A DNA stretch of 64,000 bases, taken from the NCBI RefSeq assembly GCF_000280925.3, contig NZ_CP012109.1, forward strand, positions 9,026,001 through 9,090,000. The letters run 5' to 3'. Below the pieces are notes generated by a model, which was not told the origin of the DNA, ran no database searches, and worked only from the letters and a program-made list of their open reading frames with translations. Of this stretch, positions 19,788 through 24,861 are shown one piece after another. The DNA is from Myxococcus hansupus. GTDB lineage: Bacteria; Myxococcota; Myxococcia; Myxococcales; Myxococcaceae. The stretch's first letter is position 1. Every line of letters starts with the position of its first letter. Both the position numbers and the translations under genes were made by a program.

Positions 19788-20005
19788 GGAGCCCTCTCGC
19801 TCGTCTACCGCCCCTCCCTAGCATGGCTGGCGGTGCCGGGGGCGGTCCCCTTTTCCGGGACTCCCGGGCCCATGCCCGCCTGCTGTCGGGTCCGCGAATC
19901 CCGCGGGCACCAGGCGTGTTCCTCCTCTCAGAAATCGGGGCGCTTCTCGCGTCCCGGAATGCCGGTGGGGGCGCATTGAAGGTTCCTTTTGGACAGGCGG
20001 GCTCC

Positions 20006-21466
20006 ATGAGCCTGCGGGCATGGTTGGGCGCGACCATGGGCATCCTGGCCCTGTTGACGCTGTCCGCCGCCGCCTTGCTCGTCATCCTGACGGCCGTGTT
20101 GGACCGCTCCGCCGCGACCTTGGGCGACGCCGTGGAAGGCATCCGCTTGTCCGAGGAGCTGGAGGTCGGGCTGCTGGCGCACGACCGGATGGTGCGCGAG
20201 GGCCCGACGAAGGTACCGCGTGGCCCCGGTGGACTCACTCGCATCGAGCTCGAGGCCTCGCTGTATCAACAAATCGGGTCGCTGCGCCGCATCGCTGCGA
20301 CCGAGGAGGAGCGCGGGCAGCTCGACGCGGTTCGTGGGGACGTGGACGTCTACTTCTCCTCGCAGTGGGACCCGGCGCGGGCGGAGAAGGACGCGGGGCC
20401 GGCGCTGGACGCCGCGTTGGGCGGGCTGGAGCATGTCATCGCCATCAACGTGGAAGGCGCGCGCGTGGCCCGGCTCCAGGCGGAGCGGTGGAACACCATG
20501 GCGGACTCCGCAGGGGTGGTGCTCTGCGTGTTGCTGCTGGTGGGCGTGCTCGTCGTGAGCCTGTTGCTCCGGCGCGTGGCGCTCCAGCCCTTGCGAGACA
20601 TCAGCCAGTCCATGCGCCGCTTCGGCGCGGGCAGCAAGCGCACCCGCGCGCCCGAGGCGGGGCCCACCGAGCTGCGCGACATGGCCCGGACGTTCAACGA
20701 GATGGCCAACAGCCTGACGCACCAGCAGGAGCAGCAACTGGCCTTCCTCGCGGGCGTGGCCCACGAGCTGCGCAACCCGCTGTCCGCCCTCAAGTTGTCC
20801 ACGGCCCTGACGGACCGGAGCCGCGCCCAGCTCACCCCCGAGCGCATGGACCGCACCCTGGCCCTGGTGGGCCGGCAGGTGGAGCGGTTGGACCGGATGG
20901 TGGGGGACCTGCTCGACGCCACCCGCATCGAGGCGGGCCGGCTGGAGCTGCGGCCGGAGGTTCGGGACGCGTGTGAGCTGGCGCGCGAGGTGGTGGAGCT
21001 CTACCGCTCCGGCGACACCGGCCATGTCCTCCGCCTGTCCCTGCCGGACGCGCCCGTGCTGGTGCGGGCCGACGCGGCCCGGCTGGAGCAGGTGCTGCAC
21101 AACCTCATCAGCAACGCGCTGAAGTACTCACCGGGGGGCAGCAGCGTGGAGGTGCTCGTCCGCCGGGAGCAGGGGGAGGCCGTCCTGTGCGTGACGGACC
21201 AGGGCATTGGCATCTCCGACGACGAGAAGCGCCTGCTCTTCGCGCCCTTCCAGCGCGCGGGCAACGCGCGTCAGCGCGCGCCGGGGGTGGGCCTGGGACT
21301 GTCGGTGGCCCGGCGCATCGTCGAGGCCCATGGTGGCAGCATCGACGTGGTGAGCGAGCCGGGCCATGGCTCCGTCTTCTCCGTGCGGCTGGCCCTGGCC
21401 TCCGAGGCGCCGCGGCATCCGGAAGAGGGCGGGGGGCTGACGCCTCCCCAGGACGCCTTGCACTGA
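20006..21466 (+). CDS. Orphan sensor histidine kinase (HAMP-HisKA-HATPase)
   Basis: The protein has 486 residues from the ATG at 20006, with GGACAGG upstream; upstream in-frame codons lack membrane character. It has a transmembrane helix (residues 5-32), a periplasmic helical sensor of about 135 residues and a second helix (VVLCVLLLVGVLVVSLLL). A HAMP linker follows, then a HisKA domain with the phospho-acceptor His253 in HELRNPLSALK, and a HATPase domain with NLISNALKYS (N box), DQGIGI (G1) and GVGLGLSV (G2). No response regulator is adjacent, so it is an orphan kinase. Confidence 0.9.
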   Translation: MSLRAWLGATMGILALLTLSAAALLVILTAVLDRSAATLGDAVEGIRLSEELEVGLLAHDRMVREGPTKVPRGPGGLTRIELEASLYQQIGSLRRIAATEEERGQLDAVRGDVDVYFSSQWDPARAEKDAGPALDAALGGLEHVIAINVEGARVARLQAERWNTMADSAGVVLCVLLLVGVLVVSLLLRRVALQPLRDISQSMRRFGAGSKRTRAPEAGPTELRDMARTFNEMANSLTHQQEQQLAFLAGVAHELRNPLSALKLSTALTDRSRAQLTPERMDRTLALVGRQVERLDRMVGDLLDATRIEAGRLELRPEVRDACELAREVVELYRSGDTGHVLRLSLPDAPVLVRADAARLEQVLHNLISNALKYSPGGSSVEVLVRREQGEAVLCVTDQGIGISDDEKRLLFAPFQRAGNARQRAPGVGLGLSVARRIVEAHGGSIDVVSEPGHGSVFSVRLALASEAPRHPEEGGGLTPPQDALH

Positions 21467-22193: not shown

Positions 22194-22892
22194 TCACGGC
22201 TTCGCGCCGCCCCGGGCCTTGCGCAGCTTGCCGGTGAGCTGCGTCATCGTGTCCTGACGGCAGGTCAGCGTGTGCTCGAGTGGGCTGAATCCCCGGCGCG
22301 TGAGCTTCACCGCCACGGGGGTGCCCGCCAGACAGTCCAGCGTCACCGTCAGCGGGGTGGCGCCCTCGCTTCGGCCGTTCACGAACAGGGTCGCTCCCGG
22401 CGGGAGGGTGTCGACCATGAGCACGCTGACGCCTTCCATGAACGCGTGCTGCGCATGGACCTCGCCCTCGCGGACCTCGACGGGGGTGTCGAGTTGCGGC
22501 GCGAGCGTCGTCTCGGGGCGGGCCGTGGCCAGCTCCTCGCGCGTGGGCGGCGCCTCGCCTGCTTTCTGGAGCGCGGGCAGCGCGAAGATGCCCGCGGCCA
22601 CCACGGCGGCGGCGGCGCCGCACAGCCGGAGTGCCGCGGCCAGCGCGCTGGGCGGCGGAGGCGGTGGCGGGACGTTGACGAGCTTGCGCCGGGGCGCCGC
22701 GTTCCCCTCCACGGGCAGGTGCCGTCCCGGCGCGGTGGCCGCGTCGTCGTCGGACGCGGCCGTCTGGGCCTGCTGCGCCTGGAGGTGGGCCAGCTCCTCG
22801 GTGCGCCCCATCAGGGACTGAGACCAGGTGTCGGGCTCGGAGGACGCGTTGTGCGTGGGGCGGCCGTGGCTGGGCGTGGGAGAGGTGCTCAT
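22194..22892 (-). CDS. Single-pass membrane protein with C-terminal PEGA domain
   Basis: The protein has 232 residues from the ATG at 22892; the frame is open upstream but that part is a shadow of the ATPase gene. A hydrophilic N-terminus and a proline run (VPPPPPPPS) precede one transmembrane helix (ALRLCGAAAAVVAAGIFALPAL). The periplasmic C-terminal region has a PEGA domain (LPPGATLFVNGRSEGATPL, then VKLTRRGFSPLEHTL). Its start lies 26 bases downstream of the GspE-like ATPase stop on the same strand, so the two are probably cotranscribed and may act at the envelope together. Confidence 0.7.
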   Translation of the reverse strand: MSTSPTPSHGRPTHNASSEPDTWSQSLMGRTEELAHLQAQQAQTAASDDDAATAPGRHLPVEGNAAPRRKLVNVPPPPPPPSALAAALRLCGAAAAVVAAGIFALPALQKAGEAPPTREELATARPETTLAPQLDTPVEVREGEVHAQHAFMEGVSVLMVDTLPPGATLFVNGRSEGATPLTVTLDCLAGTPVAVKLTRRGFSPLEHTLTCRQDTMTQLTGKLRKARGGAKP

Positions 22893-22917: not shown

Positions 22918-24453
22918 TCATCCGCCCACCACCCGGAAGACTTCCCGCAGGGACGTGGTGCCGTCGCGCGCGCGTTCGACGCCCGCGGCGAGCAGGGTGA
23001 CCATGCCCTCCTGGACGGCGATCTCCTGGACGCGGGAGCTGGGCACCTTGGCGTTGATGGCGTCGCGGATGTTCTGGGAGATGACGAGCATCTCGTAGAT
23101 GGCGGTGCGGCCCAGGTAGCCGCTGCCCTCGCAGCGCTCGCAGCCCACGGGCCCGAAGAAGTTGCCACGGGGCAGGCCCGCGGCGTCCAACCGCACCGCC
23201 TCTTCCGGCGTGAGCGGCTGGGGCGCCCGGCAGTGGGGGCACAGGCTTCGCACCAGCCGCTGGGACAGCGTGGCGGCGGTCGCGGAGGCGAGCAGGAAGG
23301 GCTCGACGCCCATGTCGATGAGGCGGTTGAAGGCGCCCGCGGCCGAGTTCGCGTGGATGGTGCTCAGCAGCAGGTGACCGCTGAGGCCCGCCTGGATGGC
23401 CGTGCGGGCCGTCTCCGAGTCGCGAATCTCGCCCACCATGATGACGTTGGGGTCCTGCCGGAGCACCGCGCGCAGGCCCTGCGCGAAGGTGAAGCCCTGC
23501 GCGGCGTTGACCTGCGTCTGGGCGAAGAGCGGGACGTCGAACTCGATGGGGTCTTCGATGGTGGCGATGCGCGTGAGCTCGCCGCGCGACTGCTGGATGT
23601 GGCCCAGCGAGGCATACAGCGACGTCGTCTTGCCGCTGCCGGTGGCGCCCGCCACCAGGATGAGGCCCTGGGGAAGCGCGAGCCGCTCCTGGAACTTGGA
23701 GAGCAGGGCCTCGGGGAAGCCGAGCGCCGACAGTTGGGGCAGCCGCACGCCGGTGCGCGCGATGCGCAGGGCCACCGCCGCGCCGTGGTTGGTGGGGAGG
23801 ATGGAGACGCGGATGTCCGCGGGGCCCTCGTCCGTGGACAAGGGAAAGTGCCCGTCCAGCGGCTTGTCGAGGTCGTAGAGCGGCAGCTTGGCGAGCACCT
23901 TGACGCGGTTGATGAGCCGCGAATGGTGCTCACGCGGGAAGGTGAGCACTTCCTCCAGGACGCCGTGCATGCGGAAGGCGATGCGCGTTCCCGCCTCCAG
24001 CGGATGGATGTGGACGTCGCTGGCGCCCAGCCGGATGGCGCCGTCCATCAACTGGCCCATGAAGCCGATGATGTCCGGATCGGGCTTCGCGGCGATGCGG
24101 CGCAGTCGCTGGCCCAGCTCCGTCAGCAGGGTCCTGACGGCGGTGGCCGTGTCATGGGTGAGCACCTCCAGCGGAGACAGGCTCGGTCCCTTGGCCAGCG
24201 GCTTGGGCTTGGGCTCCCGGTGCCGCGCGCGGCGGGCCGCCACACCCGAGGCGTAGCTGAAGCCGAAGGCCAGGGCCACGCTCGCGGCGAAGAGCGGTGA
24301 CATCACATCGCGCAGGTAGTGGCCGCCGGCCTCGAGGGCGGGGCCCGTTCCCAGCGAGGCGTGCCGGTACACCCACACGCCGGTACCTCCCACCACGGCG
24401 AGGACCGCCAGGGTCCACAGCAGGTTGGCGGCTCGATTCATCAGCGGGGTCAT
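22918..24453 (-). CDS. GspE/PilB-family ATPase with N-terminal membrane anchor
   Basis: This protein of 511 residues belongs to the type II secretion/type IV pilus assembly ATPase family. Walker A GATGSGKTT begins at Gly269, with an Asp box (IEDPIEFDV), Walker B VIMVGEIRD and a His-box region GLSGHLLLSTIHAN. The zinc-binding tetracysteine loop has CPHC near residue 410 and CERC near 440. Unusually, the usual N-terminal domain is replaced by two hydrophobic segments (LLWTLAVLAVVGGTGVWV and VMSPLFAASVALAFGF), so this ATPase should be anchored in the membrane. The following PEGA gene has a single membrane helix. No pilin or secretin genes are nearby. Confidence 0.85.
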   Translation of the reverse strand: MTPLMNRAANLLWTLAVLAVVGGTGVWVYRHASLGTGPALEAGGHYLRDVMSPLFAASVALAFGFSYASGVAARRARHREPKPKPLAKGPSLSPLEVLTHDTATAVRTLLTELGQRLRRIAAKPDPDIIGFMGQLMDGAIRLGASDVHIHPLEAGTRIAFRMHGVLEEVLTFPREHHSRLINRVKVLAKLPLYDLDKPLDGHFPLSTDEGPADIRVSILPTNHGAAVALRIARTGVRLPQLSALGFPEALLSKFQERLALPQGLILVAGATGSGKTTSLYASLGHIQQSRGELTRIATIEDPIEFDVPLFAQTQVNAAQGFTFAQGLRAVLRQDPNVIMVGEIRDSETARTAIQAGLSGHLLLSTIHANSAAGAFNRLIDMGVEPFLLASATAATLSQRLVRSLCPHCRAPQPLTPEEAVRLDAAGLPRGNFFGPVGCERCEGSGYLGRTAIYEMLVISQNIRDAINAKVPSSRVQEIAVQEGMVTLLAAGVERARDGTTSLREVFRVVGG

Positions 24454-24561: not shown

Positions 24562-24861
24562 TCAGCTCTCGACTTCGGTCGAGGCCTTGTCGGCGTTCTG
24601 CTGCGTGTCACACGCCTTCTGGGCGTCGTCGGACGACGTCTGCGAATCCGCGGACGCCCGCGGGTCGGCCTTCGCGCAGTTGCCGACGCACGGCATGCCC
24701 GCCGAACCGCACCGGGAGCGCTCACCCATGTCCTGGCACGGCGTGTTGCAAGCCGACGTGCACGTGCAGACGTCTGCACAGGACTGCGCCTGGACGCCAG
24801 GGGCGAAGGTGAGCGCGAAGATGAAGGAGGCACCCGCGAAGAACTTCGTCAGCATGGTCAT
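24562..24861 (-). CDS. Small secreted cysteine-rich protein
   Basis: The gene encodes 99 residues with a clear signal peptide (MTMLTKFFAGASFIFALTFAPGVQAQ, cleaved near residue 26). Nine cysteines lie in the mature part, mostly between residues 28 and 62 (SCADVCTCTSACNTPC, RCGSAGMPC, VGNC), which suggests disulfide knots or metal binding. The tail is Asp/Ser/Ala-rich. AGGA lies a few bases upstream of the ATG. It is flanked on both sides by strong hairpins. The family is not recognised; small extracellular Cys-rich peptides of this kind occur in myxobacteria. Confidence 0.7.
   Translation of the reverse strand: MTMLTKFFAGASFIFALTFAPGVQAQSCADVCTCTSACNTPCQDMGERSRCGSAGMPCVGNCAKADPRASADSQTSSDDAQKACDTQQNADKASTEVES

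Follow-up and report, generated by a model that had tools for sequence, protein, structure and literature searches.

The window analysed here, a stretch of 64,000 nucleotides of the Myxococcus hansupus genome, carries a gene for a GspE/PilB-type ATPase of 511 aa with two N-terminal predicted membrane helices (22918..24453, ATG start; ORF call and Pfam) and, beginning 25 nt past the ATPase stop, a gene for a single-pass membrane protein of 232 aa with a C-terminal PEGA domain (22194..22892; Pfam and helix prediction). Both genes, and all features within them described below, lie on the minus strand. The same strand also encodes a small cysteine-rich, secreted-looking protein of 99 aa without a Pfam match, located upstream of the ATPase (24562-24861), and a further PEGA-domain protein of 540 aa without other Pfam matches (405-2027).

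T2SSE (PF00437) spans ATPase residues 128-507 (E 7e-108; 360.9 bits vs a gathering threshold of 24.9) and matches all 21 ATPase members of our alignment A3, from which L130, L143, and L148 were left out; residues 109-509 are alignable to Vibrio GspE. Alignment to GspE structures places the N2 domain at about residues 125-235 (23749..24081). It is followed by Walker A (GATGSGKT; 23626..23649), the Asp box (ATIEDPIE; 23542..23565), Walker B (VIMVGEIRD; 23419..23445), the His box (23341..23376), which has HANS vs mostly HTND in the canonical set, and a four-cysteine zinc motif (C405, C408, C438, and C441; 23131..23241). The key residues of the two Walker motifs and of the Asp and His boxes are invariant in A3 (21 rows) and in A1 (22 rows, for 22 of the 30 ATPase proteins), among them E300, D301, P302, and E304 of the Asp box and GEIRD of Walker B, and so are the four cysteines; the exception is a GAGKT Walker A in some Archangium. 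Two proteins with a Walker A variant (L114 and L118) were read individually and counted among the family. The modelled core is closest by fold to PilF/PilB (TM-score by target of up to 0.89) and EpsE. Invariant catalytic and zinc residues, together with this resemblance of the core to PilF, PilB, and EpsE, lead us to expect that the ATPase forms a working hexamer.

The initial annotation, made from the window sequence, held that two hydrophobic segments replace the soluble N-terminal domain of a GspE-type ATPase, and the comparison with relatives bears this out. Both segments were identified in 39 of the 42 family ATPases of Myxococcota vs none of the 48 canonical ATPase ORFs that served as a control in the interval tested; a single segment occurs in a few canonical ATPases. 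Two of the three remaining family members are cut by contig ends (G159 and G161), and the third (G138, locus L091) has an in-frame TAG, which reflects either gene decay or a sequencing error. In the window protein, the first predicted membrane helix comprises residues 11-30 (24364..24423) and the second residues 53-73 (24235..24297), as judged from hydropathy and AlphaFold2, and P53 is invariant in A1 and conserved in at least 90% of A3. Hydropathy places the segments near residues 4-22 and 50-68, and the AlphaFold2 helices extend over residues 2-31 and 53-79, with a block pLDDT of only 52-73. A basic linker accompanies the two segments where the N1 domain would stand, and MshEN (PF05157), the N1 marker, is absent from the Pfam matches of 21/21 family members at E 0.01 and found in all three other assembly ATPases tested from the M. 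hansupus genome. The mean number of K+R residues is 4.3 after helix 2 vs 1.7 in the loop, and low (1.1) before helix 1; the charge pattern after helix 2 fits a C-in orientation and predicts that the ATPase domain lies inside. The ATPase is a predicted membrane-anchored protein.

We rejected the reading that the hydrophobic segments are an artefact, with the true start lying downstream of them, and give it next to no credence. The initial annotation had named such downstream starts in homologues as what would refute it; instead, a start codon was detected in 30/30 proteins, the window's included (28 ATG and 2 GTG), although this placement is partly dictated by the script because the search was confined to an interval of 22 codons ahead of Walker A. 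GC3 is at least 0.89 starting at codon 1 of the ATPase, and upstream sequence (150 nt) shows 29-57% identity when compared position by position, unaligned. In nine equal-length pairs that were not realigned, dN/dS was 0.19-0.77 for codons 1-80 vs 0.12-0.34 for the catalytic part; the helix region is thus under constraint, if weaker than that on the catalytic part. In relatives as distant as 40% identity, both segments are kept, and their spacing from Walker A is similar. The point favouring a later start is the existence of further downstream GTG codons in the ATPase ORF.

Proceeding from its N-terminus, the partner protein has a helix, a region rich in prolines, a single membrane-spanning helix, and the PEGA domain. 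The conserved N-terminal helix (WSQSLMGRTEELAHLQAQ; 22758..22829) was delineated from A4, the alignment of 21 partner proteins (L130 and the kinase of L141 were left out), and is modelled by AlphaFold2 at residues 22-45 (block pLDDT 57-70); it is presumed to be cytoplasmic. The membrane helix comprises residues 84-109 (22566..22643). The PEGA domain (PF08308; 22215..22427) is matched with E 9e-9 (35.6 bits vs a gathering threshold of 20.8), and residues 141-220 are modelled with a block pLDDT of 93-98. Pfam alone detects PEGA in 21/21 A4 members, including the window protein, with matches at E up to 0.01. The cysteine pair within the domain (C187 and C211 in the window protein) is present in all 21 A4 rows, two of which have the first cysteine displaced by one or two residues, and its conservation is consistent with an oxidising periplasm. 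In a fold search, the nearest PDB matches of the PEGA protein were transthyretin-like domains, and these matches were weak (best E 1e-3). PEGA has been termed peptidoglycan-associating, and in other systems a membrane segment typically precedes it (PMC7159879). Partner sequences also include short forms (about 130-145 aa) that lack the N-terminal helix, which would otherwise be the obvious candidate for an ATPase contact. In one genome (G021, L048), the partner frame is apparently shifted near its start by gene decay or a sequencing error.

The pair is not an oddity of M. hansupus: many myxobacteria possess the two-gene ATPase-PEGA unit, which forms a family. Among 195 Myxococcota genomes, 43 have an ATPase match at E 1e-96 or better, and 42 of these represent the family; G170 was dropped from the family counts since its match is a canonical ATPase with a soluble N-terminal domain. 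The co-occurrence with a membrane PEGA protein suggested by the initial annotation holds across the family: the partner gene lies directly downstream in 42/42 members, and the PEGA domain is visible in 41 of them, as detected with a model built from A4, which overlaps many of the counted sequences. In the last case (G016), the contig ends after the N-terminal part of the partner, and the PEGA part is probably a match located on another contig. The end of the ATPase gene shares 4 nt with the start of the partner gene at 10 of 30 loci, most of them divergent. A scan of named genomes located the pair in M. xanthus AM003, Pyxidicoccus fallax, Hyalangium versicolor, Archangium species, and others; in M. 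vastator the ATPase is present and the partner is cut by a contig end, and the pair was also found in one Kofleriaceae MAG. Within Myxococcus, 14 of 27 genomes do not have the family ATPase. In the MAG RH-23may17-1049, the gene that overlaps the 3' end of the family ATPase gene by 4 nt encodes, instead of the PEGA protein, a Ser/Thr kinase that has a membrane helix at its C-terminus (L141:5650-8405), and no PEGA was found there. Outside myxobacteria, the two segments were found in none of the loci with a legible ATPase ORF in a 50-locus scan that relied on two peptide patterns, which distant relatives may escape, and on plasmids the annotated ATPases among the 10 listed of 596 matching records were canonical gspE. 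One locus labelled Comamonas sp. KCTC 72670 (L139, BNCN01000005.1) encodes a 98% identical myxobacterial ATPase and probably belongs to a mislabelled Myxococcus genome. In the literature searched (titles and abstract openings, with few subscription journals covered), we found no description of an assembly ATPase paired with a PEGA protein.

The genomic surroundings of the pair vary. Across 30 regions from nine genera, 31 of the 36 genus pairs have no common ORF besides the core (E 1e-15, within 8 kb); the other five do have a common non-core ORF, and g33 and g34 have a collinear downstream block. Even within Myxococcus the pair is located at different places. A search for an empty insertion site yielded no clean one: the flanking gene duo is present in 19/19 Myxococcus genomes searched, the flanking genes are ~8 to 24 kb apart in the 14 Myxococcus genomes without the ATPase, and in G019, G020, and G026 the pair and these flanking genes are on separate contigs. 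The whole 9.49-Mb M. hansupus genome contains just 41 PEGA domain matches, yet the partner stands beside every family member, which makes chance adjacency unlikely. Given this genome-wide count, the 42/42 linkage, and the differing flanks, we rejected a chance neighbourhood of PEGA.

The statement of the initial annotation that no pilin or secretin genes lie nearby also stands, and it extends to the platform: the window contains none of the genome's 4 secretin, 14 N_methyl pilin, and 6 T2SSF platform matches. The T2SSF sites of the genome include one at 5.67 Mb, beside a T2SS-like ATPase and a secretin, and one at 1.32 Mb, beside PilB/PilT-type ATPases; two further single-domain T2SSF ORFs at 2.65 Mb look like TadB/TadC. 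Another assembly ATPase of the same genome (L003, G000:C1:5477231-5478385) has MshEN, and the nearest T2SSF match is more than about 190 kb away from it. T2SSF proteins were found in 50/50 genomes tested. The count is 6 in all 18 Myxococcus genomes tested, 10 with the ATPase and 8 without it, and ranges from 6 to 12 outside the genus. The presence of the ATPase thus leaves the T2SSF count unchanged; therefore, within Myxococcus the pair brings no platform of its own, and a dedicated platform gene was rejected for this genus. The pair could be borrowing a resident platform.

Such borrowing leads to an alternative that we consider possible but rather unlikely, namely, that the pair serves the type IV pilus or type II secretion system already present in the cell as an additional or substitute motor, held near PilC or GspF by the membrane anchor and positioned at the wall by the PEGA protein. 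The assembly-type core, with its fold nearest to PilF/PilB and EpsE, and the T2SSF proteins in every genome tested would suit this role, and a platform plus an ATPase alone has been suggested as a minimal membrane assembly complex (PMC10191384). Against it stands the loss of the N1 domain together with the preferential alteration of N2: positions conserved in canonical ATPases are lost at 12/40 sites in N2 vs 12/102 elsewhere (Fisher p 0.013, post hoc). The loss of N2 residues would agree with a platform partner that is new or absent. Furthermore, the platform count is identical in the 8 genomes tested among the Myxococcus genomes that do without the family. Finally, in a tree from which six near-identical genomes were left out, a 100/100-supported branch separates the family (26 rows) from canonical ATPases (29 rows); a long-branch warning applies, and the other three assembly ATPases of M. 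hansupus fall across this long branch from the family.

The neighbouring genes raise a different alternative, in which the ATPase would report its nucleotide state, rather than exert force, across the membrane, with PEGA as an envelope sensor. Six of the 30 regions (L044, L045, L047, L048, L049, and L050, from G018, G023, G006, G021, G001, and G007) have a receiver-domain gene after the pair, PF00072 being identified in L047, and the membrane Ser/Thr kinase occupies the position of the partner in one MAG. Past the 3' end of the pair, the opposite strand of the window itself encodes a histidine kinase with HAMP, HisKA, and HATPase_c domains (19823-21466, plus strand), which may formerly have been linked with the receiver gene. 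There is also a precedent in M. xanthus, where a hydrolysis-deficient PilB variant supports exopolysaccharide (EPS) production without pili (PMC5544727). However, the six regions are those of close relatives, all Myxococcus, and the receiver gene was not found within 8 kb in the other 24 regions, the window included. The strict conservation of the catalytic and zinc residues also speaks against signalling, and we regard this alternative as improbable.

The reading that we prefer, while according it somewhat less than an even chance, is a two-gene ATPase module of the inner membrane in which motion or conformation driven by ATP is handed on to the PEGA subunit and no pilus is built. In such a module, each subunit of a GspE/PilB-type hexamer would be anchored by its own two helices, and not through the docking of an N1 domain to GspL or PilM. 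The partner would cross the membrane once, with its N-terminus in the cytoplasm and its PEGA domain, probably stabilised by a disulphide, in the periplasm. The ATP-driven movement of the hexamer would be transmitted through the helices to the PEGA subunits, and these could contact the cell wall or another part of the envelope, a step proposed because PEGA is described as peptidoglycan-associating (PMC7159879). The pair might then act as an envelope-spanning motor or switch, without pilin polymerisation. We infer the topology, the hexamer, the contact between ATPase and partner, the wall contact, and the direction of force. More tentatively, this module could be a minimal two-protein envelope motor, in which a self-anchored pilus-type ATPase hexamer has shed the platform-pilin machinery and drives PEGA against the wall. 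Several observations count against the module, namely, the T2SSF platforms available in all 50 genomes, the short partners without the N-terminal helix, the MAG with a kinase in place of PEGA, the modest AlphaFold2 confidence and weaker constraint in the helices, the low K+R content ahead of helix 1, and the lack of the family in about half of the Myxococcus genomes. Of the "separate assembly motor" envisaged in the initial annotation, "separate" remains plausible, considering that the pair has no platform of its own in Myxococcus and that N2 is changed, and "assembly" is not borne out, nothing to be assembled being encoded alongside.

Assembly ATPases are usually described as cytoplasmic and as pushing on a platform protein; the way in which force is transferred across the membrane is unsettled (PMC10191384). 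The ATPase-PEGA pair, a putative motor with its own helices and without the remainder of the machine, would be a simple system for asking about action across the membrane without platform or pilin, and it offers a clean gene-deletion target in M. xanthus.

By its sequence, the ATPase belongs to a known family, of which it represents a variant form. Similarly to GspE (1p9r, 4pht, and 4kss), it has N2 and C-terminal ATPase domains, the Walker motifs, the Asp and His boxes, and the four-cysteine zinc motif; unlike GspE, the family has two hydrophobic helices in place of N1, and the window has no platform, pilin, or secretin matches. The closest fold matches are PilB/PilF, the type IVa pilus extension ATPases (5oiu and 5tsh), but the family differs from these in lacking MshEN/N1, in not being encoded beside platform or pilin genes, and in falling on the opposite side of the tree. 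The window protein reaches neither the cut-off of the GspE equivalog TIGR02533 (418.7 vs 630.25 bits) nor that of the PilB equivalog TIGR02538 (382.2 vs 675.65 bits). The N1 domain that is missing here is thought to contact the stator complex in assembly ATPases (PMC11656802), and an AlphaFold-based model, speculative according to its authors, has the N-terminal domain contacting the platform (PMC10191384). The partner resembles PEGA-domain membrane proteins in that a membrane helix precedes PEGA (21/21) and is unlike other such proteins in being tied to an assembly ATPase. In PilN/GspL-type coupling proteins, a single membrane helix joins an N-terminal part in the cytoplasm to a domain in the periplasm. 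The predicted layout of the partner is similar, with PEGA as the periplasmic domain.
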